Assembly: GCF_026914265.1 (NCBI RefSeq)
Contig: NC_069133.1
Coordinates: forward strand, 3,199,566-3,263,565
From: Mya arenaria
Taxonomy: Eukaryota; Mollusca; Bivalvia; Myida; Myidae
Length of the DNA: 64,000 nt
Reading direction: 5' to 3'
Shown: piece by piece, positions 18,937 to 40,900 of the stretch
Layout of the letters: the number at the start of each line of letters is the position of its first letter
Position numbering within the stretch: the first letter of the stretch is position 1
Notes under the pieces: generated by a model
What the model saw: the letters and a program-made list of their open reading frames with translations, nothing else
Databases searched by the model: none
Told to the model about the DNA's origin: nothing
Translations under genes and position numbers: made by a program

Positions 18937-21900
18937 TTACTGCACAAAATCCTGATCATCATAAAATTCAGGAAGGTAAATACCACAGAAGCTATTTCTT
19001 TGTTTTGGCATATTTTCTTTTGACGTGTCATCAGTGTTATATGAAGTACTGACATCGTTTTTACTTTCCAGCTCCTTTTCCAACTCCTCGAGACGGTTCC
19101 GTAATATTCCCTGAGGTTTGTATTCAATATCAGGGTGATTCCGTTTCCTATGGTGATCAACAGACGATCTATTTTTAATTGGGATATGACATATGTCACA
19201 CGCGTATAGTTTCTTCTCCGAGTGACTGATGTAATGCTCCAATTGCTTTATGCGGCTCGAATGGCTTTTTTCGCATCCTTTTACAACGCATACAAACCGG
19301 TTGCCTTCTTTATTCACGTGTTTAATGCTTTGTAGACCAGATGTACTAGGACAATCAGTTATTAAGTTATTGTTCAGCTCTGGTAAAATATTCTTAGTAT
19401 GCCTGAATTTCCCTTCTGTTGACGATTGTGTTGTCGCTTTAAATTTCTTAATTTCTGAGTTGCCCTCAATGGTCTGGTGTGTCCTCTTTGACCCTGTCGA
19501 TTCCAGTTCCAATGGTTCGGGTAGCAACTCTGAGTCTGACAGGAGTATATCATCATTAATTGAATCTTCATCAGTACCGAAACCCAAAATGTCTGAACTT
19601 GAATCATCGAAATATGACATTTCCTTGACAAACATGTTCGGTGGTTCATTCTTGTCTTTGAGTGGTTGTTTCCCTCTATCATTACCTTGACTAGTGGATA
19701 TATTTCTTGGTTGTGCTGGATTTTCATCTTGTCTTGGTTTTAAATAACGTTCTTGCTTTGAATTGGGGTTGATTTTACGATGACCGTTTTCTGAATCCTT
19801 TCTGGAAGGTATCTCCATCTTCAGATACGTTTGCAGTTCACTGTGTAGGGAATGTCCCGTGCTTGTTTCAGGGCCTTGTTCAATCCCATGGTGTCTTTCA
19901 GCTGTTTGGTGAGCTTTTTTTTTGATTTGTTCTAAAAAGAAAATATCTCTTATGAGAGTCATTGTCTATTGTTCCCTTAGTAGTACTGTTTCAAAGAAAT
20001 GTAAAACAAGAAAGATATTGTGGCCCTTAATCGCTCATCTGAATATATTAGCAGTATCGCTGAATTAGAATAATATGTAATTACATTGATATAGGTTTCT
20101 TGTACAATCCAGTTGGATGAGTAGCTTACAGTCCAGAAGAAACCATTTTTACACTGTTTAACATTATCTTTGATTTCAAATGTGACCCTGACCTTCAAGG
20201 TAGGCAAATGTTTTTGCGTGACATGGCGTTTCATCTGTTGAAAATTTTGGGCAGGTATGTCAAAATGTGGCAATGGATGACAAACGAGGGTGCAGAATTT
20301 GCAAAGGGGTGCTATCACAACGGATGCATAAACAGACAGTAAGTTTACTATTGGTTGCCTCCTTTTATGATAGTATTATAGTTCAAATATTTCGTAAAGA
20401 TCGGAAATTAATGAAACATACATTGTGTTAAGATTTTTTTCTAATATAACGCCTAGAAACCGTGTTCTTTTTTTTTGGTTAAACAAAATGTACCCGTATA
20501 TGTAACTACTTAAGATTTAACCAATACGTATATGAAAAACTACAAAAAACAAGCTCAGTAGCAGGCAAAAAGTTTAAACATGCACCCTGTTTAATGGCAC
20601 AGGGTAAAAGCCAAATACATATAACACAAAAACAAACAATCACAAACAAGGAACATGTAACTACAGCACAAAACTCGATAAACAACACAGTACATATATA
20701 CTACATGTATATAAAAACTAGGTTCTTTATCAAAGACAATCATTCCGACGAAGTTTCGTTCAAAGTGGTGCGTAATGGGACCTATAAACTGTAAAAGGCA
20801 CAAGGATCTACGGTTGGATTTGATAAGATGAAAAAACCAGCCTCTATTGGGTATATAAGATATGAACTTGTGACTTTTATGTATTGATTCTAGATGATAC
20901 ATATTCGGATCCACCCGAGAATTCATCAAAACGGTTTTTCGGACCAATTTGCAGACGCGTTTTTAATAATATGTGACCTTTAGAATGTTGACGACAGTCG
21001 ACGCATGTCGGATAACCGACCTATCACAATAGCTAAACAATAAAAGTACAGAAACCACTTTATCGCTGTAACACACATTGTTGTTGTTGATGTTGTTGAT
21101 ATAACTGACACGTGACTGTTCCTATAATAGTGTACTATAGTATCGAGAAAAAGCGGCCATAGTGATGCATCGAGGATAATGTATCTATCGGTACTTTAGT
21201 GCATGATCGTATTAATAAGTAATGTTGTTTCGTGAATTAGTGGTAACCATCTAATTCAATTTGATGGATGTCAAATTGTCGCAATAGCTGCCTATACTGA
21301 CGATAACTGCCTGTTACGGTTCTTTCAACAACTATCGATGACTATCGTGCATACCAATAAAGAGTTAAAGTTCTGAATCACACAGATCAATGTCAACATT
21401 GTTACACTCACCAACGTGTCTGGAAAAGGCTCTCTGAATGCCTTGAAACAAGATTCTACAGTAGGCTACCCCCTTGTCGGAGCCTAGAATATTTGGGTTT
21501 GTGGCAGTCACCACAAAGCACTCCTCTCCGTTCTCAGCTAGTCGACGAGTCTGTATTTAAAAATATGCTTAGTTAAATATGAGTGTTTTCTATACCATTA
21601 AGTGTTTCGCTTAAGTGATAACCTTATACTAAATTATAGTTTCAGATGTTAACTTCTGACATATGTGTTTCTATATATTTCTTTTTTGATATTGGATGTA
21701 TTGTAAAAGTGTGATGTAATTTGAGCTATCAGTGACAGTCTATAAGTTTAACGACGTGGCTGTTGAAATACGTCGGTAATGAGTGAAGAACAAGTCTCCA
21801 TTCTTTCATATTAACACCATTAGATGGACATTGGTTTTACGCTCACCTGATATACAATCATAGATCGGATCGCCTTTCTGTCATTATTAAAATCATCGAC

Positions 21901-24644
21901 GACTTGGTTTGTGTAAACGCTTTCAAGCATGTCCTGTTGACCTGGAATGGCAAGGAGCGAAATTAATTGAAATCGGCATATTGTGATGTTTAGATTTACG
22001 ACACTGCCATGAGTTTACATGATGCGAAATAAAAAAAAACTTGAGTTAGTATTCCAAGATAGATTACCGAAACAGAGTTTTATTAGTGAATTCCATATTA
22101 AATTTCTCGTTCGGATGCAAAATATCAAGTCAATGGCGCTGTCGCCCTCTTTATTTAATTACATTTGGTCTTCCGACTGATCTTATTAACAGACAAATTA
22201 ATAATACGTGTTCATTTTAATATTTTGTTTATAAAGATGCTGAATGCTGTTTTCACTTATATACAGAGATATCATCCATGATGACATACTTAAATATGGT
22301 ACAAACTCCTTCTGCACGCCTTTAAAGTTTGCCTTTATGAATTCAACTCCCATGTTTGAGCCTATTAAATGGGATCCTTCATCGACTGCACAAGCAGTGA
22401 TAATAAAACAGTCTTCCCCATCATTACTCAGCAGTGACGCCTGTAAAATATACGATAGTTTAGCAGGATACCAGTACATATTCATTTCTTACTAAGCAGT
22501 TGTGCCTGTAAAATATATGATTCTTCAGCAGTATATAATTACACCCCCTCCTTACACAGAAGTGATGCCTGTAAAATATACCAGTCTTCAGCAGTATATA
22601 AGTACACCCCCTCCTTACACAGAAGTGATGCCTGTAAAACATACCAGTCTTCAGCAGTATATAAGTACACCCCCTCCTTACACAGAAGTGATGCCTGTAA
22701 AACATACCAGTCTTCAGCAGTATATAAGTACACCCCCTCCTTACACAGCAGTGATGCCTGTAAAAATATACCAGTCTTCATCAGTATATAATTACACCCC
22801 CTCCTTACACAGCAGTGATGCCTGTAAAACATACCAGTCTTCAGCAGTATATAAGTACACCCCCTCCTTACACAGAAGTGATGCCTGTAAAACATACCAG
22901 TCTTCAGCAGTATATAAGTACAGCCCCTCCTTACACAGAAGTGATGCCTGTAAAATATACCAGTCTTCATCAGTATATAATTACACCCCCTCCTTACAAA
23001 GAAGTGATGCCTGTAAAATATACCAGTCTTCATTAGTAAATAATTACACCCCCTCCTTACACAGCAGTGATACCTGTAAAATATACGATAATTCAGCGGT
23101 AAATAATTACATATTCCTCTTTAATCAGCAGTTATGCCTGTAAAATATATGATACTACAGCAGTATATAATTACACCTCATACTGACACAGTAGTTATGC
23201 CTGTAAAATATATGATACTACAGCAGTATATAATTACACCTCATACTGACACAGTAGTTATGCCTGTAAAATATATGATACTACAGCAGTGTATAATTAC
23301 ACCTCATACTGACACAGCAGTTATGCCTGTAAAATATATGATACTACAGCAGTGTATAATTACACCTCATACTGACACAGTAGTTATGCCTGTAAAATAT
23401 ATGATACTACAGCAGTGTATAATTACACCTCATACTGACACAGTAGTTATGCCTGTAAAATATATGATACTACAGCAGTGTATAATTACACCTCATACTG
23501 ACACAGCAGTTATGCCTGTAAAATATATGATACTACAGCAGTGTATAATTACACCTCATACTGACACAGCAGTTATGCCTGTAAAATATATGATACTTCA
23601 GCAGTATAAAATTACACCTCATACTGACACAGTAGTTATGCCTTTAAAATATATGATACTACAGCAGTGTATAATTACACCTCATACTGACACAGTAGTT
23701 ATGCCTGTAAAATATATGATACTTCAGCAGTATATAATTACACCTCATACTGACACAGCAGTGGTGCCTGTAAAGTATATGATACTACAGCAGTATATAA
23801 TCACACCCAATACTGACACAGCAGTTATACCTGTAAAATATATGATACTACAGCAGTGTATAATTACACCCCATACTGACACAGCAGTTATGAGTGTAAA
23901 ATATATGATACTACAGCAGTGTATAATTACACCCCATACTGATACAGCAGTGGTGCCTGTAAAATATACCAGTATTCGTCTGTTTATAATTTTATTCAGC
24001 AGTAATGCGTGTAACATGTGGAATACCTCTGCAGAACAAACTGTTGTATATCTTTACAAAGCCTTCCTTACTCAGTAGTGATGCCTTTAAAATATACAAA
24101 ACTTCGGCAGTGTATAATTGTACGTTTTACCTTACAGTGATGTTTGAGTTCCGCTGTGCAAAAATAAAATTCATGTGTTGACAGGCCTCAGTCTGTTAGT
24201 CTAAAAATATCATAAACTGTCAAAACAAGTTTAAACATCTAACTAATATTCCATAATTTCATTTAACCTAGTTTTGGCCGTGTTTACGTCACGTCTGGAC
24301 TGAACTTTCTTTTGTGATCGAACGTATGTCAATTTCATTCATCAGAATCAATCGAGTTAGTTTTCCTTTGTTCATTCGAATTAAAGGTTTTGAATATGCG
24401 AATCTACTCTCTTTACCAATTTCAGTCGACTTACTCAAGTATATTCATACTAATCTTCTGAACAAATTGATTCAAAAGTCGCTCGACACCAAATTACTTA
24501 CACAAGATATCAAATATTCCGAACAGTCATAAAGCGATATATAGGGATATTTTCGATTAAATTAAAAACCTTCATTAAACTTACCAAGTGTTCCAACTGC
24601 GACCGAATCACTTCCCTGCGAACACTTACAGTGCGGTTCTCCAT
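18937..24644 (-). CDS. Gene A: twin-module C2H2 zinc-finger protein, 479 aa
   Basis: Five exons on the minus strand: 24644-24585, 22440-22290, 21941-21847, 21550-21412 and 19931-18937. All introns are GT-AG with phases 0, 1, 0, 1, and the joined 1440 nt form one frame ending in TAA. Residues 1-70 hold module 1 (REVIRSQLEHL, then GEDCFIITA and LIGSNMGVEF). Residues 71-149 hold a linker and module 2 (RKAIRSMIVYQ, then GEECFVVTA and LGSDKGVAY). Next is a Lys/Ser-rich, then Asp/Ser-rich disordered region with a SYFDDSSSDILGF patch. Two C2H2 fingers follow (C-x4-C-x12-H-x3-H at 363-385; C-x2-C-x12-H-x4-H at 393-414), then a charged helix (LEELEKELESK). The ATG was chosen by alignment with gene B; an in-frame ATG 20 codons upstream lies beyond a likely acceptor at 24668 and is less likely. 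Probably a nuclear DNA-binding protein (inferred from the fingers). I do not recognise the twin module. The paralogue is gene B, facing away on the plus strand. Confidence 0.8.
20200..20311 (-). other. Finger-like open segment inside gene A intron 4
   Basis: After an AG at 20312-20313 the minus strand stays open. It encodes CKFCTLVC, a loop of about 20 residues and MKRHVTQKH, so a C-x2-C ... H-x4-H pattern resembling a BED-like or atypical C2H2 finger. It is in frame with exon 4 of gene A (phase 1). The visible donors (after LPTLK, GTCAGG; further down GTAAGC) are phase 0, which would shift exon 5 out of frame. It may be an alternative terminal exon, a remnant of another gene, or chance. It has no counterpart in gene B. 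Confidence 0.25.
20500..20950 (+). repeat. Dispersed repeat in gene A intron 4
   Basis: Contains AACAAACAATCACAAACAAG, AGCACAAAACTCGATAAACA, CTAGGTTCTTTATCAAAGAC, CATTCCGACGAAGTTTCGTT and GTGCGTAATGGGACCTATAA in order. Parts recur at 5290-5600 (same strand) and 38490-38600 (inverse). It is a short interspersed family of unknown class. Confidence 0.6.
22441..24150 (-). repeat. 63-bp intronic minisatellite derived from the gene A exon 2 acceptor, about 25 copies
   Basis: Tandem 63-bp units fill most of intron 1 of gene A up to the acceptor of exon 2. On the minus strand each unit holds TATATTTTACAG followed by GCATCACTTCTGTGTAAG, and real exon 2 begins TATATTTTACAG then GCGTCACTGCTGAGTAATG. 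The unit is therefore the acceptor plus the exon start. Two subfamilies exist: about 22502-23130 (GGAGGGGGTGTA type) and 23131-23990 (CAGTATGAGGTGTAATTA type), with diverged edge units at 22441-22500 and 24000-24150. Because 63 is divisible by three, long repetitive frames stay open on both strands, up to 314 codons on the plus strand. These are periodicity artefacts rather than genes. Confidence 0.9.
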
Positions 24645-25547
24645 CGTAAACACTTGAAATGTTGAACCTGTATACGAATGGGGAATGAAATCAATTTCAT
24701 TCTTCATTCAAGTCAGTGTACACACCATGACAATAGGTATTAATGTCCATTTCAACATTACGTACACTAAGCCATCGTGATATAACAATTAAATGCAATG
24801 AAAAGTTTGTTTGCATTATGATTTTGGATATCTCTGGTTATATCCATTGAACTTAATTTCCAATAAAATTTACTATTTCTGTTTCAACTTTGTTGATAAC
24901 ATAGTACGGTCATATACTAGAAGTCTGACAAACCAGACTTTCAAAACATTATCGTTTTAATCAGAAAGAGGCTACTTTCGGTCTCAGCAAACTTTAAGGT
25001 AATTGAAGAAAAGGTTAACGAAGCGTAAAGCGTAAGCTTAATTTAGCGAGATCAACTAAGATCGATACATTTTGGGATATAATAAAAGAGCGAGCGGAAC
25101 AGCATTGGTGTTCCTAGCTCGAAGAATACTTGTTTATGAAGATATGGATTGACTTAAGCAAGGTTTACAAACGAAATACAATGTAAATATAAATCTCGTT
25201 AAATTTCAAACGACTTTTGACTGTGGAAGGCCCTTATGAGGACGACTATGGGCCGTGCCAGTTATTAGACGCCTGTATGGGGATAAATGTTTACAAATGT
25301 CAATGGGGGAAGTGTTTGTATATGAATAGATTGTATTTATATAAGAAAAATATGATTTCCCAAGGAAAATAAAAAATCTCATTCAACTTTGAATATGGGG
25401 TTAAAAACCGTGTTGATGCGTGTTTAAACTCCCAAAACGTCATATAACATCTTTTTAAACGGCATATTATATGAATTAGCCTTACGGTTATTCACTTTCT
25501 TTTAATATTGGCTGGTTGCCAGTCATACGAGTTCGCCATGTAAGAAA
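24645..25547. other. 5' flank of gene A; no further exon located
   Basis: A probable 3' splice site (TATACAG on the minus strand, AG at 24669-24668) lies 23 nt upstream of the gene A start codon. This suggests an untranslated first exon further upstream that I could not place. No TATA box or CpG-rich promoter is evident. Confidence 0.35.
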
Positions 25548-25549
25548 TA

Positions 25550-26018
25550 CAGTTGAACACCGTTAATCCGAAATCGTGGGGACCAAACAAATTATTTCGG
25601 AATAGCGATATGTCGGATTAATAACTTTTAGAAAATGACAGCGTTCGCAAAATATAGATGACATAAAATACTAAGTCGTGAAGATTGGAATGTCGGTTAC
25701 ACGTTACCAATACGATACATTCGGTTTAAGTAAAGTTTCGTATACAAAAATATGTGTTTATTTATTGTTTAGTACGTGACAAATAACTCGAAGTATGGTG
25801 TGAAAAACTACGACATGATCGAGTTCGAAATAAGAATTGATAAAAAGGTGTGAAATACCAAATCGGGACCGTAATTTCTACTTCGGAGTAGCGATTGTTT
25901 CGGACTAGCGATTTCGGATTTAAGATTAAAAATTTAGTTAAAATATCGGGACCGAAAAATAGTTTCGAAATAACGATAATTTCGGATAAACGGTGTTCGG
26001 AAGAGCGGTGTTCAACTG
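25550..26018. mobile_element. Pogo/Tigger-like MITE, 469 bp
   Basis: The left end is CAGTTGAACACCGTTAATCC and the right end is GGTGTTCAACTG, its inverse. TA flanks both sides (25548-25549 and 26019-26020). The interior repeats TTTCGGA-TAGCGAT and GGGACC phrases. A TA duplication with CAGTTGAA ends is characteristic of pogo/Tigger-type non-autonomous elements. No transposase is encoded. Confidence 0.8.
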
Positions 26019-26020
26019 TA

Positions 26021-27518
26021 ATCATATTAAAAGAACACTTTATAGAAACTTGTCGTGCTATTATATAAGCATGGTATAATACACGGGCATATTGTGTAAT
26101 AGTTTATATATTTGATATAAAACTATAATTGGCATAACATGCAAGGCACCAGTCGAGATCTAGATAGTCGTTTCGGCATGGTTACACATGTAGGAGATGG
26201 CCGAGAACTTTTCTACGTTTGAGAAAGTTGTGCAAAAATATTGTCCAGGCCAATAATGTGTTGCTATATTGTCATGTGATAAATCCGTCATAATCCGGAT
26301 ATTTCTGTATTTATACGGAATGTTATCACCATGTGTTTGTACGAGCTTAATAAACGTTATCATTAACAAACTGACTGAAAAGACTGATACATAATTTTGA
26401 GGCCAAAGGCTGATTTTTACCCCCACCGATTAGTGAGATATTCGCCAAAGGAGTAATTTTGTACCAAAAATGCCACAAGCCCTGCGATGAATGACATCTA
26501 GAGTGGTCCAACATCTCTGACTATTTGATATGGTTTCATTACTCTAGTCTTAACTTAACTAGTTGTAATTTAGAATTTTGATAGTACATGTGTCTTCAAA
26601 AGCATTACCTAAAGTAAGAATAGTATATTTAAAAGGATGAGCAACACTCGCGGTCAGTCAAATGAAAGCGTCCAGTCTGTATACATATATAAACTGACCA
26701 CTTTCTTTTCGATGCCCGGGTTGCCTTATTATTTAAATACTAAAACCTCTTCATAAGCATATTTTGGAAATTCGTCCAACCTATAAATAGCTCGAACATT
26801 TTGGTTAAGAAATACTTATTACATGTATATGATATCGATGTATCTAAACGTACTTAAACTACGGGAATCGACTTACATTGACATAGTTCATTTAATGCCC
26901 ACATGTAACAGTAATTTTAAAAACTTTATACTCCGCGAGTGAGGGGACGAATAGACAGAGTAAATTAACATTAGCAAATGCGCACCTACCACCCCCACTG
27001 GTGCGTTTGGTTATTACACCCATTTACATGCAATCCAATGTATCAGCTATTATTACAGACAGGTCAATAGTCACAGTTTTAACATTCTTTATAAATATCA
27101 TATGAGAATATAATCATAGATTTAAGCTACTTTAGGTTACTAGATAGTAAATGTAGTGTATCGACTGTGAAAACATGAATCTACTTTCGCTTTCGTGGTT
27201 TATATGAAAACAAAAGTATGTAAACATTTAATGAATATTTAGTATGTATGTTAAATTCAAGAACATGTGCTTACCAGTAGGTTATTACGATTAATCAATT
27301 CGCTTTTATTAAATGTTTGTTTAGTATCCTTAAAATGTACAATGTAATTTATATTCTATATTTCTACAAAGTTTCTTATTCATAAAGTGTCTTGATAACA
27401 ACTTCACACAATTCACTGAGCAGCCTATATAAAATATGTTATGTGTTATATATTGCTTTTGAATACACTTTCTTCTTCACACTTAACTGAGTAGCATTCC
27501 ATCAGTATGAGTAATATG
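26021..27518. other. No gene recognised in divergent spacer
   Basis: AT-rich spacer between the two zinc-finger genes. The 88-codon minus-strand frame at 26160-26426 has no motif, splice context or compositional bias that supports a gene. Confidence 0.4.
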
Positions 27519-27526
27519 CGATTAGG

Positions 27527-28882
27527 TGGGTGCAGGACGAAGTGAACCATTTCACAAGTGAACCAGTTCCTAAGTGTACCATTTCAGGACCAAGTGAACC
27601 ACATATGTATTATATAGTGGCTATTGTGTGATGGGACACTGCCTGAAAGGTGATAATAACTAGTAATTATCGCCATTTGAATGCAAGACTTCACACATTT
27701 GCTACACTGTTAAAGATGTGTATTTAGCTGTTAGAAATTGACTTTTAAGGTTCATGACAATTAATATAGTAGCTATTTTTATGATAGTAACATAAATACA
27801 AGAGATGCATTAATATTATTTGTTACAAATCAATAAATGACACATGTTACAGTACAAATAATTGATGTTAATAATAATAATGTTTAAAGCACATGGTTAT
27901 AACAAAAGCACTATATGAATAAATTAAACATGGTAATACATAATTCATAATGCAATACACAACATGTGTAAATATGGAAACATACATGATATACAATACA
28001 TATCATCAACATGAAGATCACAAATACTTGAATACATATTGTCAACATACAGCACAATACACAATTAGTCAATTTATTGTCATACTACTCATCAGCTTCG
28101 CTGCGGTTTTCGATTGATGCTGGGATTGGACCCATACCAATCAGGTGACTGGCTTCCCTGAGCAGTTGAGATGTTGTGAGGTTGTCATCTTCATATTTAT
28201 CCCACATGTATATTCTTGTACTTTTGCCTCTGATTTCTGGTTACAAGGTTGTCTGACACCAGTCTGACGTCCTCCGCTTCGGTCCGCAGGAGTGGAACCA
28301 GAACGTAGAACGGTAGGCTGCACCCGGTGCCAACTTATATACAGGCTTTCATACTAAAAAATGTTTGAGTCATATGTCACTATGTCTGTTCACAGCTTCT
28401 GTAAGTGAGCTGTTAAATTAGTAATTACCAATTAATAAGGCCAATTAAAATTAAAGTACAATTATCCATTAATTACACCCACCCTTATTTGTTTTCGGTA
28501 CATGAATGAGGTGTAAATAACAAAAATAGAGAATTTTTGAACATATCTATGGAATAAAATTCAACAAAGTAGGATGAATTGATAATATATTCTTTATAAG
28601 GATTAAATAAAAAGGTTGTTTTTTTTTCATTTTTCTTTTCCTTTTTTTTCAAAATATTGGTATATTAAAATACATAATTCTAATAAATCAACACTTTGAT
28701 ATGATTAACAATTTATTCATATTATTTATTAAATCATTTATACTCAGGAAAATTAACTCTGAAACATAATATTTCATTAAGAGAATATTCCCTATCTAAC
28801 ATATAGATGGTTCACTTTGTATCACCAAGTGGATCACTTAGTCCTGGTTCACTTGGGAAGTGGTTCACTTCGTCCTACATTC
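27527..28882. mobile_element. Non-autonomous DNA transposon, 1356 bp, with 8-bp target duplication
   Basis: CGATTAGG occurs immediately outside both ends (27519-27526 and 28883-28890). Inside, the left end has TGCAGGACGAAGTGAACCAT and the right end has GTGGTTCACTTCGTCCTACA, which are imperfect inverted repeats. Extra AGTGAACC boxes lie just inside each end (three left, three right), as expected for subterminal transposase sites. An 8-bp duplication suits hAT (also P or Merlin). The interior is AT-rich with no transposase, so movement would have needed a helper element. Confidence 0.75.
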
Positions 28883-28890
28883 CGATTAGG

Positions 28891-29607
28891 TTACGGAGAC
28901 CTACTCGTGTACGCTGTACAATAGAAGTGGGTTTACCCTTATCAGCGTATTTATTGTCCCTATGTTGATATAAGTGTACATGCAAGGACTGGAACTAACA
29001 ACAACATATCTTCGGATTGTATAAAATTCGTACCGTAAGTAATAAACCTTTTTTAATAATTGTTATAATTACGAAACGATTCAACATTAGCCGGGGTGAT
29101 TAAGATACCGATATTAGATTTGGACTAAGGGAAGTGAAATTCTTTTTGCCGCGAACAATGAGGTATTATAACTAAGCACATTAATAGTTATCGTATTGAT
29201 CAACTGTGTTAAGTCGACCGGATAGAAATAACTATTAGGGAAAGTCTCAAATCGAAAGTAGCTTTATTTACGCATTAACGATTAGAACAAGATTAAAGTT
29301 AATCGCCATACAAAGATAACAATAATTTATTGACATACTTTCACTTGATGTGTCCCATAAAGATTTATACAACCATTCAAGGTTACAATGTTGAAAGTTT
29401 CCCGTATGTTTACAAGTTCAAAAGCTCAAATAGAAGGATTGTGTAGGGATATGTAAATGAGTATAACACAGTATGACTAAACACCGAAAAGCAAGAAATG
29501 CAAGGAAAACCGCGAAAAGTACGGCGAAAAGAACAGAAAACACCGAAAAGCACGAAATGCAAGGAAAAGCACGTATATCACAAATGAAAACACGCCGAAA
29601 AGCACAT
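28891..29607. other. No gene recognised
   Basis: AT-rich DNA ending in a short Lys-rich frame from a GAAAAGCACGAAATGCAAGG-type direct repeat (29475-29600). No exon signature. Confidence 0.4.
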
Positions 29608-29965
29608 TCGGTACTCCTCGGCTATTTTCCTTGTTATCACTGCATTTTGGTGCTTAGTCATACGTATAACAACATTTCATTCGGAACACCAAGGCACACC
29701 AACCTCGGATGTATCTGGACGGTTTACAGTGTCAGAAATATGTACATTCAAGTACGCTGCATGTAGATCGCGTAGTAATTTAAACTCGGCAGCGAAATTT
29801 AATGATTTTACTCTTTGGACTCTTATTTATTTATAAATACACTAAAACAATCCACTCACATTAAATTTTAACTTTAAATTAAGATATACAAGATACACGT
29901 TACACTAATTTTACGAACCACTTCTACCTATGTACGTGTATACATTCGAGGTTGTTTTCGATGAT
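29608..29965 (+). mobile_element. MITE-like dispersed element, copy 1
   Basis: Starts near GGTACTCCTCGGCTATTTTC. It shares AACCTCGGATGTAT, GTACGCTGCATGTAGATCGC and GTAGTAATTTAAACTCGGCA with the reverse complement of 37046-37390. Its right end holds the inverse of AACCTCGAATGTATACACGT, so the element has long imperfect inverted ends. No coding sequence. Confidence 0.55.
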
Positions 29966-30053
29966 AAGTTGTGAATGAATAACATATTATATGATTGGCA
30001 GCGATCGAAATCCTGTTAAATTTAATACGGACTTCAGTTGGTATATAACAGGC

Positions 30054-30285
30054 TATTTCGGAGTTTTCCGACAGTATAAGTACAAGCTTTTAAGGAGTTT
30101 TCTGAGCGTGTATATTTAGGCAAATACAGAGTTTGTCGGCTAGGTGAATACAGGCTATTACCGAGTTTGCCGAGTAGGTGAATACAGGTTATTACGGAGT
30201 TTGCCGAGTAGGTGGATACATGCTATTACGAAATTTGCCGAGGAGGTGAATACAGGCTATAACGGAGTTTGCCGAGTGGGTACGT
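30054..30285 (+). repeat. 34-bp minisatellite, about six copies
   Basis: The unit is GAGTTTGCCGAGTAGGTGAA plus TACAGGCTATTACG. Divergence increases to the left (30060-30130). Confidence 0.8.
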
Positions 30286-31500
30286 AGTAAATGTGCACAT
30301 TTTCAATTAAAGTTACTGGCGAAAGTACATCTGATGGAGTGTACTTTCTTTCAGTTTAAGTGGATATTGAGCGTAACATTTCTACTGATTCTTGTTTTTT
30401 TATGGTCTTCGTGATTGTTACAGGATTGCAGATAACAAATAGTTTCTAATCTTTGAAAACCATCTTGCCGTCGGACTTTTAAAGCCACTTGCAGTAGATC
30501 GTTAAACAAATTTCATATAAAAAAGAAATAATTTTGAGATTGAAAGATGTACAAAAAATGAATACTCGGCTATGATAAAGATTTGAACCGCCTTTATGAC
30601 TACAAAGGTAAACACTATTTGCCTGTGCATGTAAAAGTTGAAATGAAGCGGATATTATCGAGACACGTTATACAAAATTAGTTAAGAACACAATATATGT
30701 TTCCCCTTTTGACATGCCATTATAACTATTTCTGATGAAGGTTAATATCGTATCAACTTGTATCTCTCAAAAATTACATTTCAGGAAAAGAAATTAACCC
30801 TACTCCTTCCCCTACCCCATAGTTATTTTTAGTTTTATCTATATTGTTTATTCCATGTATACTGATCATTAATTAGATAAAAACTTGGTAAATCATCATT
30901 CGTAAGTTCTATGAAGCTTTTCAAATATTTTGAACAGCAACAGTTGGTGTAAATAACGTTTCTGTTAAAATGTAACATAAAAGACCACGTTTTAACAAAA
31001 ACAATATGTTACACAGAGTGCTTAAACATATAAAGTCATGTCATTTTGCAAATGAAGTTTGCTTTGAGTATCTAATGGTTGTCAATTGGTATGAAATCAG
31101 TATATCATGGCACCAATAATTACAAATAATATGCCTTGTTCTCACAAAGTATATTTTGAGTGACCTGTGTTATTTTTAAATCTCATCAACATGCTCTTTA
31201 GCGGCTGGGCGCTTGGAATTAAAGATGTGAACTACCGGGTCAGAATTATTTCCTGTTTCAAAGTGGAGAAATATTTGAAATATACATGCTTCCGGCTTGT
31301 CATTGTAAGAGGGTGTTTTGTTAAACAGTCATGTTCATTTACATTTAAAATTAAATCATTTTAGACAGATACATACAAATAAAACATCAAGTAAATAATT
31401 CCGATCTGATTTTTGTATCTATTAAAACATAGGTTCATACACAGTCTGCATGTACATCAGATTGAACCTGTTTTTAGATTGATACAAACCAATCCGAGTT
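30286..31500. other. No gene recognised
   Basis: AT-rich spacer. Frames at 31167-31364 and 31413-31640 carry no recognisable motif. No RNA gene is seen. Confidence 0.4.
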
Positions 31501-31504
31501 TTTC

Positions 31505-31741
31505 ATATTTACTGTCAATTATTGATGTTTTATGGCTAAAAGTATTACTAAAGACTAATGAGTTTATTGGCATAAAACATCAATTTTCGAGCGTATCTAT
31601 GACAAACTGCGATCTGTTTTTTTGTCAGCAGTCTATATAATAACATCCCTGGTTTCAAGACATGAACGAAAGAATGGCTCATTCCATGACAAAAAAATAA
31701 GAAAGAGTTGTCAAAAAGGTAAATCTGTGAGAGTGCAGCTC
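31505..31741. mobile_element. Partial copy of the TTAA MITE
   Basis: Shares the interior TTTTATGGCTAAAAGT and the right end GTTGTCAAAAAGGTAAATCT-GTGAGAGTGCAGCT with the complete element at 16224-16562. The left terminus is missing or decayed and the right flank is no longer TTAA. Confidence 0.6.
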
Positions 31742-31744
31742 TAT

Positions 31745-33040
31745 AAGGCATGATAATTGAAATGCACAAATGTAATGAACAGTTAATTATTACGTTACTT
31801 TGCAATGCGACCGATATTATGAGCATATCACACCTAAGCAAATAATTGCTTTGATTGTTAATTTGATATGTACTTCAGTCATAGACTAGTCGTTTTCAGC
31901 ATTGCGAGAACCTCCATACCCAACACTAGCAACGTCAGTTATAGGCTGCGTAGAAGTCTTTCGGACTTTTCTTTAATAGTTTACGCTAGGTAAAAGTATA
32001 TGTTATTTAGATTTAAGCATAATTTAGTTATTTTCGATCTTCCAATATTATCAAACTTGACTTAAAATTTAATATAGCCTGATTAGCAGCCGTATACGGG
32101 ATGTTGGGTGTCGAAGAGTCCGAGTACTTGAAAATGCCTTGTTTATGTTATAACATTAAGGGTATTTTTGCATACCGGTATAGTGTTTCCGGTCAAGTGA
32201 CCAGTGCTGGAAAACCCGTCTTACACACCAATATAAGATGAGTCACGCGCAACAACGCGCCACTTCTTATTTCTGTTATTGTATTGTTTATGCCATTTCA
32301 ATAAAGCGCTATCAAAATTTCCACAAATTCATAATTAAAATTTGAACTCGATAAACCTCGTTTCGGCAAAACACCCTAGGCTCGGGTCGGAATGAACCTA
32401 ACTTACACTCTCGGCCATGGAAGATACTTATAATCTGGGGTGGGAGAAAAGCAGTTCAGCTTAATTAAATGACAGCGTTATAAACAAATTTACATTTTTG
32501 CTTTTGAAATGAAAATGAAATATGTTTGAACTGTGAAATACAATTGTTACTTTGAAAATGCATTGTAATATTTCATAGAGATACCAATTCGAAAACGCGA
32601 TCGTAGAATATGATCGCTGGTATAATGACCCTTAAATATACTTAAAATTAACAGTTGCCTTATTGGACATTTATCTGTAACTGAATTCAGTGTTTTACCA
32701 TAATTGATTGCGTTTGATTGCTTTCTAATGGCATTCGAACCCATTTTGATATATCAGTGCAACCCAGCTTACATTATAACCTTGGTTTTTACAAAAACTG
32801 CCCGAACTGGCCTATATTTCGACGTAGCAAAGTATGTGTGTGTGGGGGTTGAGGGCGGAAATCCGCATATGTTACGATCAATAATTATCTATGACGCAAT
32901 AAGTTTATAATTATGAATGTTGGGAGGGGAATATTTGTTTTTACAACAAGCTGTATGTATCTGTATGTTGTTTGCAATAATTGACTATATGACTGTATGT
33001 TATAGCTGCTTCGTTATAATTTTGATATTGTGTATTTACA
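31745..33040. other. 5' flank of gene B; nothing definite
   Basis: AT-rich sequence. A CACGCGCAACAACGCGCC patch lies at about 32246-32263. An AG acceptor at 33040-33041 lies 11 nt before the gene B start codon, so an untranslated upstream exon probably exists here, but no donor could be assigned. Confidence 0.35.
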
Positions 33041-33052
33041 GACAAAACAAAC

Positions 33053-36000
33053 ATGGGCGATGAGCTGGCTCTTGAGAGACGAGTTGTTAGATCAGAGTTG
33101 AACGAGTTGGTCAGTATATTTCACGTTATAGTATGGTTGTTTTTTTATAATCATATTTTAGTGTATGTGTTTATCAATGTAGATTTCAACCTGTAAATAA
33201 TATTTGTTTTTAATTTTCTCTAAGAATGGTGTATTTATTTACAGTCAACTTTGTTGAACAAAGCTGGGGATGAGTGTTTTATTGTAACTGCCTGTGTTTA
33301 TGACGAAACACCACATCTGCTCGGCTCGATCAAGGGAACTGACTTTGTAGAGAGCAAATCCCTTATTGTCAAAACGGAATTTCTGCAATACTTAAGTACG
33401 TATAAAAACAGTGGTCTATTTTTACATTGTCGAAAGTTTGTGTTATGTACAACAATCTGCACACTTAAGACCTAGGATCTTATTAATTGATATCAACAGT
33501 TAGGATATAATTGGAAGGTCTCATGGTATAGGAAGAGAGCACCAGAATCCTATAGCAGGTCGTGGGTTCGGAGACAAAACTTTAGTACGTCTTGCACAAT
33601 CCATAGAGTAGCTGCAGTTGCTACTGTTTAGAACCCCGCTGGCATCCATCGAGCATGTTTAATCTTACGTTGGCAGAACAGCTTCACTGTATATGTTAAA
33701 TAAATATGTATGTATTAAGTGTAGTGAAAATAGTATTGGTGGATGACAAGTATATTGAATTGTACATCACATGACCTGAATGAGTTTTACCAAGCTGTTC
33801 ATTCCACAATTGTAGATTTTATCTGCTTTGTTTTACATCATTTCATGTTTGCGTTAATATGTTTCAGAAAACCAGGTGTCATCAGAAGTCGTCAGTAGGC
33901 CAGACGTTATTGACGATCCATGCAGTGAGAGAAAAGTGGTCAGGTCTCTTATGATACATTTGGTGAGTAAAGATGCACCCTGTTAAAGAAAGAAGACATA
34001 AACCGATACCGGGTATGATTAACACACTCAAACAACACTGGATATGATTAACACATTTTCGATATTGGATATCCTACGTCTAAAACACTTCAGTGGTTTA
34101 GCGGCTATGGTCGATAACCATAAATCACGAGTTTCCGCTTTGAGTTATATCTCCCTGCAGTAGTTGGTATGCCTCGTAAGTGTTGTTTATATATTTCATA
34201 CCGCCAGTCTGTCTGTTCGTCCATGCGCCCGTCCGTTTTATTATTGGTACAGCAATATCTTTGGAATAATTTGAACTTCACAGAATTGTAGAGCACTATG
34301 GAAAACAGTATTGCTGTTATCTCACACTTCAAGGTCAAACTTACATATAGCGACCAGTGTTATCCAAAATGGACCTCACGGCAATTGTTCTTGTCCCACA
34401 TAATTGTAAACCACCATGGTAAGAAGTGTCGCTCATATTCTTTGTGCTTGTATCCAGAAGGTCCAGGCATCACTATGGCAAGTTGTGTTACTTATAAAAT
34501 GAGCGCTCTTCAAGGTCACACTTACAGGTTTGTCAAGTACAAGTTGTGTTGTACTATAAGATGTTGTGTATTGTACTAAAAGATGGTTGATGCTGCACTA
34601 TAAGATGTTTTGTGTTGTATTATAAGATGGTTGGTGCTGTTCTAAAAGTTGTTTGGTGTTGTAGTATAAGATGTTTGGTGCTGTACTATAAGATGTTGTG
34701 TGTTGTACTATAAGATGTTGGGTGCTGTACTATAAGATGTTGGGGGTTGTACTATAATTTGTTGGGTGTTGTACTATAAGATGTTGAGTAATGTACTAGA
34801 AGATGTTTGGTGTTGTACTATAAGATGTTGAGTGTTCTTCTATAAAATGTTGAGTAATTTACTAGAAGATGTTTGGTGTTGTACTATAAGATGTTGGGTG
34901 TTCTTCTATAAGATGTTTGGTGTTGTACTATAAAATGTTGGGTGTTGTACTATAAGATGTTGGGTGTTCTTCTATAAGATGTTTGGTGTTGTACTATAAG
35001 ATGTTGAGTGGTGTACTATAAGATGTTTGGTGTTGTGCTATAAGATATTGGGTGTTCTTCTATAAGATGATGGGTGTTGTACTATAAGATGTTGGGTGTT
35101 GTACTATACGATGTTGGGTGTTGTACTATAAGATGTTGGGTGTTGTACGATAGGAGTTGGGTGCTGTACTTTCAGATGTTGGGTGTTGTTGGGTGTTGAA
35201 CTATAAGATGTTTGGTGTTGTACTATAAGATGTTTGGTGTTGAACTATAAGATGTATGGTGTTGTACTATAATATGTTTGGTGCTGTACTATACGATGTT
35301 TTGTGTTGTACTTTAAGATTTTTGGCGCTCTACTAGACGATGTTGGGTGCTGTACTATAAGATGTTGGGCGCTGTACTATAAAATGTTGGGCGCTGTACT
35401 ATACGATGTTGGGTGCTGTAATATAAGATGTTAGGCGCTGTACCATAAGATGTTAGGTGTTGTACTATAAGATGGTTGGTGCTGTACTGTAAGATGTTTG
35501 GTTCTGTACTATAAGATGTTGGGCGCTGTACTGTAATATGTTGGGTGTTGTACTATAAGATGATGGGTGTTGTACTATAAGTTGGTTGGTGCTGTACTAT
35601 AAGATGGTTGGTGCTGTACTATAAGATGGTTGGTGCTGTACTATAAGATGGTTGGTGCTGTACTCAATTAACACTACAATCATCCGAGGTATAATTTAGC
35701 TCTACTGGTAAAATGCCAGAAGAGTTTTTGCGATGGTGCGGTGTCCGCCGACCGTCCGTTTTAAGCAATTGCTTTAGAACATGATAAAGCCGATACATTA
35801 GTTTGATATCCATGTGAGTTCGGTTCCTCTCGAAACGCAGGCAGATCCGCCTTTGTATGATTAGATAATTGCACATAAAATGCAAAGGAATTTTAGGGAG
35901 ACAACTTTGTACAGAGAGTTGTGCATAATTGATGTGTTTGTGTCCCGTTGAAACATGGTTTACTAATTGCTATGATTATGTGCCAGTAGACCATAGACAC

Positions 36001-38481
36001 TCATTATGTTTTATATATGTTCGAATCTCTACTATATTTCCATCGCAAAACACATACGTTTTCTTGAAACCCTTGTCTTTCCTACGGATGTCTCCAATCT
36101 TTTGTCGTTGGCCTGGTGAACGACGTGTTCGACAGGTTGTTACGAAAGAGCGTTTATTCGACCCAGGTGTCCGTCCGTACCGGAACTTATTACCACCCAC
36201 GACAGATAAGAGATAGAAATGTATTGTGTGATAATTACAAGCAAAGTTAGCTTAAATCTCACACATACCTTTATAAATTATTGTTTGTTAACATTATTTT
36301 TACAGGCGGGTAAATTACACGCCAACGGGGAGGAGTGTTTTATTGTGACTGCAAAGAATCCAAACGTTCTTGGCTCCGACAAGGGGAAAGCTTACTTCTG
36401 CGAGAATTTCAAGTTTTGTCAGAAAGCATTCTCTCGCCACATTGGTAATTATCGGGCTTTGAAGTGTTTTAAAGTAAGACATTTAGTTCCACTTCAGAGA
36501 CTGAGATGTAATATTCTTACCTTTAATGCATTTTTCCTGATCGTTTTCATTCGATGGCCGTTAGAACCTGGGCATGAGTTCCTTATATTGGTATACTATT
36601 AATACTGAAGGTGAAACATCGTGACTTTGTAACTTTGTAAGTAAGGTGTTCAAAGGTGAATATCTGACATCCAGAATGCTTTGTCACAAAAATATTTCAA
36701 ATTGACCCTATGAATGTATCATAGCTATATTTTAATATTATTGGTTTAACATCTCATACTCAAGAAACTGATTGTATGTTTCAAAGAAAAACAAAGAAAA
36801 AACTCACCTACACCTATATAATACACATATACGGTTAATGACCATTTATGAATACGGCCCCAGATTGATTGGCCTACTAAACAGAGTTCGTTCTCGACGC
36901 CACTGTACAGCCCTTTTTGTATTTGGTCAAACTAATCTAAGGATCGGTGCTAAAATATAGGGTAGATTTAGACATTTGAAATAAATAATTATCTTTATTT
37001 AGGCCTCCTTAGATCGCCGATGGTTCTCTGACTGTATCAAGCGTTAAAACATTCGAAACTCCTTGGCCATTTTCTACCGTAAACAACCTCGGATGTATAC
37101 CTGTACATTAATAGAAGTAGATCGTAGATTTTGAGTTATATGATTAATTAATTAAAATGTAGTGTTTTAACGTGTATTTGTATTTCTAAGTTTGAATTGA
37201 TTGCCCCTGAAGTGTAGTATTGCAAACATAATTAAGATTCCATAGAGTTAACTCATTAATTTTTACTGCTAAATTACTGCTAAATTTAAACTACTACGCG
37301 ATCTACTTGCAGCGTAGTTGATGTGTACAGATTGCTGATATTGTAATCCGTCCATAAACATCCAAGGTTGCCGAGGAGTTCCGATTTGCGTTAACACTAG
37401 TGAAAAAGGAGTTTATTTTTCAATTATAAGGAGCCCCTTTGTGTGAATTGTCTTTATTGGCCATAAATCAATATGAAAAAAAAATAAAACGACATTTTTG
37501 CATATACCGGTATATTTTGAATTGTGAAATATGTATTGACAGTTATATGTTCTGTTAATAGATGAAAGCAACCTTGATGCCAGTAAAGTCGGGGGAAAAC
37601 ACGTCGAAATGAGCACACCTAACGTGTCGTTTGCTCAACATTCCAGACCTACTGATGGAAACAGATCAAGTCAATCCGTGGTACCAGTGAAAGTTAAAAA
37701 TGTTTCGGATAATGTGAAAGTGAACACTAAAAGGACCAATATAGATGACCAAATTAAGGAATCGCCTTCGCTCCTTCTTGGAAAAGCTATATCAAACGAG
37801 GGGACTCCAAGAAAGGCAAATTTCGATCATCCTGTCGTACCTATAACACCCGCCTTTTATGATAATGATAATGACCGTTGGTCGAGTTCAGATGACGAGT
37901 TTCAAGAAGTGTCGGAAAATGATTTACCCGACATGAATGCCTTTATCGGAAGGACTCCGATAAAACTAGATCAAGACGCCACGCGGTCAGTACAGTCACC
38001 TCCAAAATTATGGTCAGCTTTGCAAAAGAGAAAGGAAGCGTGTCAAGAGCTGGAATCGCCAAACCAAAATAAACAGAATGAAGATAATGGAATACGGTCA
38101 AACATAAGCGCTGGAGAAAACGAGAGGGCGACGAAGACAATTGCAGGGACATCTGATGAGTGTAAACAGGGAACTTATTCAAACACATTAGAAATACAAA
38201 TATTTACATGCGTTGTAAAAGGATGTTCGAAAGAATTTACCACCCGTTGGCCGTTATTACATCATTATCAAAGTCATACTGATAGGAAACTAATCACATG
38301 CAGAGAGTGCGATGAACAATTTAAAAGCAGCACCAGCGCAAACAAACATTGTCAAAGAGCCCATTATGATATTGAAAACCTGAAACCTCAATATCCAACC
38401 CGACGGCAACTTGAAGATCTCGAAAGGGAGATTATGGCGAAAAACACTGATGGCATCTTCAATTCGGAGACTAAAAATTGA
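33053..38481 (+). CDS. Gene B: twin-module C2H2 zinc-finger protein, 453 aa
   Basis: Five exons: 33053-33109, 33245-33395, 33868-33962, 36306-36444 and 37562-38481. All borders are GT-AG with phases 0, 1, 0, 1, and the 1362 nt join into one frame ending in TGA. Module 1 is at residues 1-69 (RRVVRSELNEL, then GDECFIVTA and LLGSIKGTDF). The linker and module 2 are at 70-148 (RKVVRSLMIHL, then GEECFIVTA and LGSDKGKAYF). A disordered region with an acidic WSSSDDEFQEV patch follows. The C2H2 fingers are C-x4-C-x12-H-x3-H (364-386) and C-x2-C-x12-H-x4-H (394-415), then an RRQLEDLEREI helix. Internal exon lengths and finger positions match gene A almost exactly. Canonical AATAAA signals lie about 100 nt after the stop. 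Probably nuclear and DNA-binding; the function of the twin module is unknown. No disabling change is seen. Confidence 0.82.
33511..33720 (+). mobile_element. Candidate tRNA-derived SINE in gene B intron 2
   Basis: AAGGTCTCATGGTATAGGAA resembles an A-box region and, about 40 bp further, GTCGTGGGTTCGGAGAC resembles a B box. These are followed by an unrelated body and a TTAAATAAATATGTATG tail. The layout fits a tRNA-headed SINE. Box matches are imperfect and I saw no flanking duplication. Confidence 0.4.
34100..34420. repeat. Dispersed mollusc-type repeat in gene B intron 3
   Basis: Contains GTCTGTCTGTTCGTCCATGC, a TTGGAATAATTTGAACTTCA block and TTCAAGGTCAAACTTACATA. These are phrases typical of the interspersed family also seen at 75-400 and 38.62-38.96 kb. 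Confidence 0.4.
34548..35664 (+). repeat. 22-bp minisatellite in gene B intron 3, about 50 copies
   Basis: The unit is ACTATAAGATGTTGGGTGTT-GT (22 bp), with variants GTTTGG, GGTTGG and GCTGTA. It is about 1.1 kb long and occupies nearly half of intron 3. Homogeneous runs of the GATGGTTGGTGCTGTACTAT variant at the right end show recent local expansion. Confidence 0.92.
35665..36230. other. Intron 3 sequence with dispersed-repeat character
   Basis: Contains TCCGCCGACCGTCCGTTTTA, CTCTCGAAACGCAGGCAGAT and CGACCCAGGTGTCCGTCCGT. These are moderately GC-rich phrases suggestive of decayed interspersed repeats. Small frames on both strands (35664-35885, 35929-36216) are not supported as genes. Confidence 0.35.
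37046..37390 (-). mobile_element. MITE-like dispersed element, copy 2, in gene B intron 4
   Basis: The reverse complement matches 29608-29965 (CTCCTCGGCAACCTTGGATG, GACGGATTACAATATCAGCA, CGCTGCAAGTAGATCGCGTA). The left end ACTCCTTGGCCATTTTCTAC is the inverted counterpart of the right end GCCGAGGAGTTCCG. Non-coding and about 345 bp. Confidence 0.6.
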
Positions 38482-39559: not shown

Positions 39560-40900
39560 CTAATGGCCAAAAGTCTTGTCCGGTATGGGTTTCCATAATA
39601 TCTTTTAAACGCGTGAAGTTACGACCTTGAAATTTTGCCTAATTTATACCGCATGTATTTCAAACCGGTTTCTGAGTTTTGATAGTCGTCTGCGCTCTAA
39701 CAATGGAGATACACTACCGGCGACGTTTTTCACGTGCTCCCTCATGTATACATAAATGTGACCAATTGGATAAAATGATTAACCTTATCCTTTTGTCTAA
39801 CGATATCCAGACCGGAAGACATCAGAATATTTGAAGAAAATATTGATTTTCATTATAAAATGAAGCTTTCAAATGAGCAACGTGCGCGCGCTATAGGCCA
39901 ACTTGAGGCTGGTGCAACTGGCGCACATGTAGCCCGTCATTTCGGGTTTAATGAGAAAACCATTCGTCGATTACGTACAAAATTCGCAAGGCATGGCACC
40001 GTGGCAGATCTCCCACGTTCCGGACGGCCGCGTGAAACGACCTTACGTCAGGATAGGCATATTCAGCTTACACACTTACGTCATCGTTTTGCCGCTCCAA
40101 ATGACACGGCACGAAACACACCTGCTCGTCATCGACCTCGCATAAGTGCCAGAACAGTACGGCGACGTCTCAAGGCAGTCGGGTTACGTTGCCGACGGCC
40201 ATATCGTGGAGCAAGATTAACTCCCAATCACAGGCGTCAGCGGGTAGCATGGGCGTTACGTCATCGAAGATGGCGCTTGAATCAATGGCAAACCGTTCTG
40301 TTTACGGATGAATGTAAATTTAACGTTGATTCAAACGACCGACGTCAACATGTCTATCGACGCTCTGGTGAGAGGTTTACGGACGCCTGTGTCATTGAGA
40401 ATGACTTGGGTGGGCCGAGCGTTATAGTTTGGGCAGGGTTTACACACCATCATAAAACCCAACTTGTATTCCTCGAATATGGTCGAGGACGCGGTAATGG
40501 CTTAACTGCACAAAGTTACGTAGACCAGGTGTTGCAGCCGATTGTTCTCCCATTCCTAACTGCCCATCCAGGTACTGTCCTACAGCAGGACAACGCACGG
40601 CCCCATGCTGCAAGGCTGACTCAAAACTTCCTGGCGGCAAACAATGTCCAAACGTTGCCATGGCCGGCTTTATCGCCGGATATGAATCCAATCGAACACG
40701 TTTGGGACTACATGAAACGGAGGATTAGGGCACGGAACGTGTACAACGTCCATCAATTACGTGACGCCATTGCTCAGGAATTGGGCCTACTTCCGACTAG
40801 ATTCCTGCACAGACTTGTAGCGTCAATGCGTAAAAGGTGCACTGAACTCACTTGGGTTAATGGGGGACATACACAATATTGAAAACGCCGTTGAATTTAA
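39560..40900 (+). mobile_element. Tc1-type DNA transposon, left end visible
   Basis: CTAATGGCCAAAAGTCTTGT follows a TA at 39558-39559 and resembles Tc1-family termini (GGCCAAAAGTCTTG). The transposase follows 300 bp later. I could not find the inverse sequence downstream of the gene, so the right end is lost, strongly diverged or elsewhere, and the right limit given is only the end of coding. Confidence 0.6.
39860..40882 (+). CDS. Tc1/mariner-superfamily transposase (DD34E), intact 340 aa
   Basis: Single-exon frame from an ATG in AAAATGAAG to TGA with no interruption. The N-terminus has a paired helix-turn-helix DNA-binding region (ERRA-like ARAIGQLEAGAT, FGFNEKTIRRL; second HTH around 85-110, ARTVRRRLKAVGLR) joined by a GRPR motif (SGRPRET, 54-60). 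The catalytic triad is complete: D150 in LFTDECKF, D244 in QQDNARPH and E279 in NPIEHVW, with 34 residues between the second D and the E, the Tc1 spacing. The length of 340 aa is normal for the family. GC content is clearly above the flanks, consistent with a fairly recent arrival. It would cut and paste its own element in the nucleus, but with only one end recognisable this copy may be unable to move itself. Confidence 0.93.
   Translation: MKLSNEQRARAIGQLEAGATGAHVARHFGFNEKTIRRLRTKFARHGTVADLPRSGRPRETTLRQDRHIQLTHLRHRFAAPNDTARNTPARHRPRISARTVRRRLKAVGLRCRRPYRGARLTPNHRRQRVAWALRHRRWRLNQWQTVLFTDECKFNVDSNDRRQHVYRRSGERFTDACVIENDLGGPSVIVWAGFTHHHKTQLVFLEYGRGRGNGLTAQSYVDQVLQPIVLPFLTAHPGTVLQQDNARPHAARLTQNFLAANNVQTLPWPALSPDMNPIEHVWDYMKRRIRARNVYNVHQLRDAIAQELGLLPTRFLHRLVASMRKRCTELTWVNGGHTQY

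Follow-up and report, generated by a model that had tools for sequence, protein, structure and literature searches.

Zinc-finger families that are restricted to one lineage and carry N-terminal domains of their own exist in both insects and vertebrates. The SCAN, KRAB and BTB families of these animals are composed of lineage-restricted, often clustered C2H2 genes whose N-terminal domain serves interaction or effector functions. In the ZAD family of insects, C2H2 fingers are likewise joined to an N-terminal domain, which contains four zinc-binding cysteines; many N-terminal domains of this kind self-associate. Here, we describe two genes of the clam Mya arenaria, A and B, which resemble the SCAN, KRAB and BTB genes in being lineage-restricted, clustered and equipped with an N-terminal domain in addition to C2H2 fingers, and which share with the ZAD genes the combination of N-terminal domain and fingers. 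They differ from the former families in lacking a Pfam match to any of them, in carrying a doubled N-terminal unit with a predicted alpha/beta fold, in having just two fingers and in numbering nine copies. Judged by their sequences, A and B represent a real zinc-finger family, an orphan one whose doubled module has not been described before, and we give about even chances to the reading that its products are Mya-restricted regulators which would reside in the nucleus and bind DNA, with the N-terminal module serving for interaction.

The window, meaning the whole 64,000-nt stretch analyzed, lies at positions 3199566-3263565 of Mya arenaria scaffold C12. Gene A (479 aa) occupies 24644-18937 on the minus strand and gene B (453 aa) 33053-38481 on the plus strand; both were assembled from the sequence as five exons and stand head to head, with 8,409 bp separating their start codons. 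The parts are as follows, with the support for each given in brackets (P numbers denote database gene models).

24585..24644, minus strand: coding part of A exon 1, with helix 1 of module copy 1 (assembly; also in model P0012)
22290..22440, minus strand: A exon 2, remainder of module copy 1, GEDCFIITA...LIGS..G (assembly, exon-by-exon comparison)
21847..21941, minus strand: A exon 3, linker plus first helix of module copy 2 (assembly, exon comparison, model P0006)
21412..21550, minus strand: A exon 4, remainder of module copy 2, GEECFVVTA..LGSDKG (assembly, exon comparison, model P0006)
18937..19931, minus strand: A exon 5, with an acidic segment, a pair of C2H2 fingers, a Leu/Glu-rich C-terminal stretch and the stop (assembly, model P0006)
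24645..33052, no strand: intergenic stretch, 8.4 kb from the A start codon to the B start codon (coordinates)
33053..33109, plus strand: coding part of B exon 1, with helix 1 of module copy 1 (assembly, model P0003)
33245..33395, plus strand: B exon 2, remainder of module copy 1, GDECFIVTA...LLGSIKG (assembly, exon-by-exon comparison)
33868..33962, plus strand: B exon 3, linker plus first helix of module copy 2 (assembly, exon-by-exon comparison)
36306..36444, plus strand: B exon 4, remainder of module copy 2, GEECFIVTA..LGSDKG (assembly, exon-by-exon comparison)
37562..38481, plus strand: B exon 5, with an acidic segment, a pair of C2H2 fingers, a Leu/Glu-rich C-terminal stretch and the stop (assembly, model P0003)

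All eight introns are GT-AG, exons 2 to 4 measure 151, 95 and 139 bp in A as in B, and the intron phases 0,1,0,1 are common to both genes. The original prediction of two five-exon genes in opposite orientation, 8.4 kb apart, with equal internal exons and phases and with fingers at matching residues (363-414 in A, 364-415 in B), was recovered on each of these points, as was the paralogy of the two genes, whose proteins share 135 identical residues among 441 aligned. Stop-to-stop frames of at least 300 aa occur four times in the window, namely, as exon 5 of A, exon 5 of B, a satellite and a transposase; when the window was simulated 200 times with a first-order Markov model, no frame reached this length (longest, 236 aa), so the long frames of A and B are not due to chance. 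An acceptor-like AG 11 bp 5′ of the ATG suggests that B may possess a further exon upstream of exon 1.

The N-terminal part, initially taken for a single unrecognized module, turned out to be two tandem copies of a smaller unit of ∼60 residues, one encoded by exons 1 and 2 and the other by exons 3 and 4, which roughly follow the pattern R..(I/V)R(S/A).....L...G(E/D).CF(I/V).(T/S)A...L.GS..G..(F/Y). Aligning a profile of first copies (7/9 sequences) with one of second copies (6/8), both made without B2a and B3b (copies described below), hhalign returned a probability of 98.6 and an E value of 1.3e-15 over 57 columns. Within the window, each of the four ways of comparing a first copy with a second one (A-A, A-B, B-A, B-B) gave z scores of 13.9 to 16.8 against 300 shuffles each. 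The intron within each module copy is in phase 0 and the one following each copy in phase 1, as expected after duplication of a two-exon cassette. The cysteine of the CF motif is present in 9/9 first and 8/8 second copies, and a second cysteine in 8/9 first copies (Tyr in the broken B3b), with none at that place in second copies, in contrast to the four conserved cysteines of the ZAD domain. The module is predicted to fold as helix-strand-strand-helix-helix, twice over (P0005 residues 2 to 69 and 88 to 158). Over the bulk of the copies, ten-residue pLDDT means of this two-module model reach 70-89 (copy 1) and 65-83 (copy 2), at low overall confidence (pLDDT, 55.8; pTM, 0.50); a one-module model shows the same order of elements with pLDDT means of 58-70, also at low overall confidence (53.7 for the whole; pTM, 0.44).

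That this N-terminal part lacks a family match was borne out by Pfam, NCBIfam, PDB sequence and fold searches, which gave nothing significant. Neither whole protein matched SCAN, KRAB, BTB or ZAD in Pfam at E values up to 5, and seven module sequences searched at E values up to 10 likewise failed to match these four, yielding a few rows far below the cut-offs in a program, HMMER, whose filters drop most Pfam matches above about 0.1. The precomputed Pfam field is empty for P0001 and P0002, and NCBIfam, a prokaryote library, contained no significant match to the modules of P0001, P0005 and P0006. Searched against PDB sequences, the B modules alone found none, and the module profile found three chains at E values of 0.47 to 1.5, which we judged to be chance. 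In the fold search of the PDB with the low-confidence two-module and one-module models, the top rows, including those from second looks, were MHC/CD1 platforms, beta-lactamases, proteasome, GAF and MglB. These are mutually unrelated and of low Z. The idea of a Roadblock-like or MHC-like module was weighed and dropped; absence from fold-search lists was not used as proof.

NCBI names P0002, the model of copy B2a, PRDM9-like. PRDM9 has C2H2 fingers in common with A and B, which differ from it in giving no Pfam match to PR/SET, KRAB or SSXRD and in possessing two fingers rather than a long array. We rejected the identity, as only the fingers support the name.

To place the pair in its genome, we searched 1.216 Gb in 18 contigs with the B modules and again with the A modules, and both times found nine copies, all on C12 in the interval 3.218-4.177 Mb. 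Exon-by-exon comparison assigned them as follows.

C12, within the window: copies A1 and B1 (genes A and B), facing
C12, 3.37-3.43 Mb: copies B2a, A2 and B2b
C12, 4.10-4.18 Mb: copies B3a, A3, B3b and A4

The next match elsewhere for the A-module query had an E value of 0.7, which is background. A finger-region query, for which 150 of 722 candidates were scored, matched the eight copies that keep exon 5. The next match elsewhere among those scored, on C10 (E 3.6e-4), was rejected as a relative and counted as background: its 444-aa frame encodes numerous C2H2 fingers of the ordinary kind, and a module is not visible in it.

The nine copies form four A/B pairs plus one extra B. Since the two genes face each other in all four pairs and parts of the intergenic space keep their order in the first three, it was the facing pair that was copied as a unit. 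Specifically, intergenic blocks at 28937-29553, 30601-30797 and 31978-32316 and one from 32433 recur at 81-86% in B2a/A2 and B3a/A3, in the same order; B3b/A4 is without them and shares only 26854-27409 (79%). Of the family born of inverted gene duplication that was first proposed, the paralogy stands, with the amendment that the facing pair was later copied as a unit, nine copies being found on C12; the first split may have been an inverted duplication. By its sequence the A/B split is old, preceding this copying; dS between A and B exceeds 2, i.e., is synonymously saturated, in every part. In the four pairs, the facing genes have start codons about 8.4, 7.1, 10.0 and 4.5 kb apart. Usual shared promoters need shorter spacing, and we do not claim a bidirectional promoter at these distances.

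Clusters 2 and 3 (C12 3.335-3.465 and 4.07-4.21 Mb, about 0.73 Mb apart) match over >100 kb, and a stretch of 19,420 bases at their right edge is 98.7% identical. They may be uncollapsed haplotypes placed in series, in which case the family would have six loci, not nine, or a segmental duplication. In the last exons, A2 and A3 differ at about 36/187 synonymous sites and B2a and B3a at 3/151.

Three homologue searches of a protein database returned 12 distinct proteins, all from Mya arenaria, in keeping with the lineage-specific family that had been predicted; because such a search depends on five-residue words in common and on proteins falling within a length window, the restriction to Mya refers to where relatives turned up. 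A literature search with six family identifiers found no paper, and titles and abstract beginnings in a sample of the literature on Mya zinc fingers, genome assembly and mollusc C2H2 expansion contain nothing like the A/B family. In passages of a 2025 article (PLoS Genet, PMC11978232), neither PRDM9 nor the terms zinc finger, chromosome 12 and transcription factor occur.

Database models of these genes are gene predictions. According to the genome paper, the published Mya arenaria assembly comprises 17 chromosome scaffolds totaling 1.22 Gb, and its annotation drew on MAKER together with RNA-seq of six tissues (Nat Cancer 2023, PMC10663159). P0006 (LOC128211768 X2) equals residues 50-479 of A letter for letter and thus contains the joins of exons 2-3, 3-4 and 4-5, and P0001 contains all five exons of copy B3a. 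Other models deviate. P0003 (MAR_014711) presents B with the join of exons 1 and 2 and one from exon 2 to exon 5, keeping one whole module in frame. P0008 joins A2 exon 1 to exon 4 in frame, again with one whole module, lacks finger 1 and ends where A2 has its early stop. P0005 contains A3 exons 1 to 4 and the beginning of exon 5, without both fingers. P0012 joins A1 exon 1 to exon 4 and stops within the latter, also without both fingers; its first exon is drawn past gene B, at minus-strand positions 39340-39260, so that an A transcript would cross B in antisense, and this distal exon may be an annotation error. Given the missing finger 1 in P0008 and the missing fingers in P0005 and P0012, the one-module models as such may be annotation errors. 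A further model, P0009 (MAR_014716), fuses B2b exon 4 to B2a exons 1 and 2; the annotation of the family is unreliable.

Intron 1 of A contains a 63-bp satellite (24 copies, 22429-23968) whose unit resembles the acceptor and the first ∼25 bases of A exon 2 (TTTTACAG up to the splice site, then GCATCACTGCTG...); the true exon-2 acceptor begins its last unit. Related arrays (about 69-78%) adjoin exon 2 in A2, A3 and A4, with strict-word units numbering 24, 1, 14 and 5 in A1 to A4. Some units (9 in A1) include GTAAGG, so that each of these resembles a 13-base exon with both splice sites. Intron 3 of B contains a 22-bp satellite of about 50 copies (34546-35664), which finds its best matches (86%) in the third introns of B2a and B3a. 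Just 3′ of B, at 39779-40882, is an open 367-aa frame for a Tc1/mariner-type transposase (DDE_3, E 1.5e-16). A transposase of the DDE_Tnp_4 kind, which we take to be Harbinger-like, spans 56581-57767 and is probably broken, as it falls into two overlapping frames; a reverse transcriptase fragment (RVT_1, E 4e-15) lies at 1543-2097.

Is the family kept by selection, or is it a birth-and-death cluster of little present function, in which an old pair keeps being copied and converted by unequal exchange along one chromosome arm, with several copies nearing loss? Several copies are damaged, as this alternative would have it: in B2b and B3b the frame of exon 5 is broken (B3b also has a stop in exon 1) and the last base of exon 4 is changed, next to a retained donor GT; in A4, exons 4 and 5 were not found, and A2 has a stop near its end. 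The related satellites that precede exon 2 in each of the four A copies would also fit. So would the synonymous divergence: in five of six paralogue pairs, exons 1 to 4 have diverged two- to fivefold less than exon 5 (p 0.0005 to 0.009; sixth pair, p 1.0), although gaps or misalignment in exon 5 could add to its apparent divergence; between B1 and B2a, for instance, 11/96 sites differ in exons 1 to 4 and 42/148 in exon 5 (Fisher p 0.0015). The pattern points to gene conversion acting in patches on the module half. Set against such a reading, A1, A3, B1, B2a and B3a keep open frames throughout their five exons, and dN/dS (Nei-Gojobori, codon bootstrap with 95% intervals; B3b exon 1, exon 5 of B2b and B3b, and stop codons left out, A4 without exons 4 and 5) is clearly below 1 for B modules, with values of 0.26 (0.08-0.67) for B1-B2a, 0.24 (0.07-0.62) for B1-B3a and 0.35 (0.17-0.68) for B1-B2b; B2b-B3b gave 0.51 (0.22-1.93). 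Last exons behave similarly, with 0.63 (0.44-0.85) for A1-A2, 0.57 (0.41-0.81) for A1-A3, 0.50 (0.34-0.81) for A2-A3, 0.54 (0.36-0.80) for B1-B2a and 0.48 (0.32-0.72) for B1-B3a; B2a-B3a are too close to judge. The A modules scored 0.63 (0.34-1.20) for A1-A2, 0.78 (0.46-1.55) for A1-A3, 0.68 (0.20-3.42) for A2-A3, 0.40 (0.19-0.88) for A2-A4 and 0.91 (0.51-1.62) for A1-A4, the last rising to 1.72 (0.84-5.01) for exons 1 and 2 alone. The purifying selection that had been postulated for the pair is therefore clear for B modules and last exons and not clearly shown for A modules, where most intervals reach above 1. Overall, we consider a largely functionless cluster unlikely.

The preferred reading, that of DNA-binding regulators, takes its support from the fingers, which begin at residues 363 and 393 in A and 364 and 394 in B. 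Both fingers of each protein satisfy the spacing C-X2-4-C-X12-H-X3-5-H, as do 12/12 fingers in the six last exons A1 to A3, B1, B2a and B3a, a count made without the broken B2b and B3b. In contrast, Pfam PF00096 scores B at 11.7 bits versus a gathering cut-off of 25.2 and yields no finger hit for A. Their initial description as classical C2H2 fingers consequently holds for spacing and fails on the profile score, and we class them as divergent C2H2 fingers on these sequence features. Finger 1 may not bind DNA, considering its C-X4-C spacing and, in A, a His at the position where Phe is usual, and DNA binding is weak with two fingers alone. An adaptor acting post-transcriptionally or in signaling, with fingers and module binding RNA or proteins instead of DNA, would suit fingers that are atypical and only two in number in a protein whose nuclear location is itself a deduction. 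What speaks against it is the stretch between the fingers, which has the seven residues usual for C2H2 proteins and includes Lys (HSEKKLYAC, HTDRKLITC), and the presence in both the A and B branches of an acidic segment, in which a 25-mer starting at residue 266 has a net charge of -9 in A and one starting at residue 246 a net charge of -8 in B. This segment lies between module and fingers in a long, poorly conserved stretch, and a Leu/Glu-rich tail follows the fingers in A and B. We regard such an adaptor as improbable. Capture or domestication of a piece of a mobile element or virus, which the nearby transposon genes and the failure of homologue searches to find relatives outside Mya might recall, is very improbable given copies confined to one chromosome within 1 Mb as large intron-keeping duplications rather than dispersed insertions, no relative in two scans of viral contigs and one of prokaryote genomes, and no match for the two-module model at E 0.001 in a viral fold library.

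If the family does encode DNA-binding regulators, the C2H2 fingers would touch DNA and the doubled module would offer a protein-interaction surface, possibly for self-association, that joins two finger pairs or a partner, with the acidic segment contacting the transcription machinery. Splicing might switch between two-module and one-module forms: because the two-exon cassettes have matching phases, skipping exons 2 and 3 or exons 3 and 4 keeps the frame and one module, and one-module forms, once confirmed by reads, would mean that splicing sets the module number. Self-association, activation and use of one-module forms make up our likeliest working model. A bolder version, which we rate as quite unlikely, holds that the doubled unit is a new domain, arisen or become unrecognizable in the Mya lineage and paired with C2H2 fingers, from which splicing would produce one- and two-module regulators, and that the facing A and B are inherited together because their products cooperate.

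The current annotation splits, fuses and misnames these genes, one of them as PRDM9-like. If our reading is true, the clam family would provide a compact case of the birth and spread of a new regulator domain, with a domain in the form of a two-exon cassette, intact copies beside broken ones, and a pair that was copied together.
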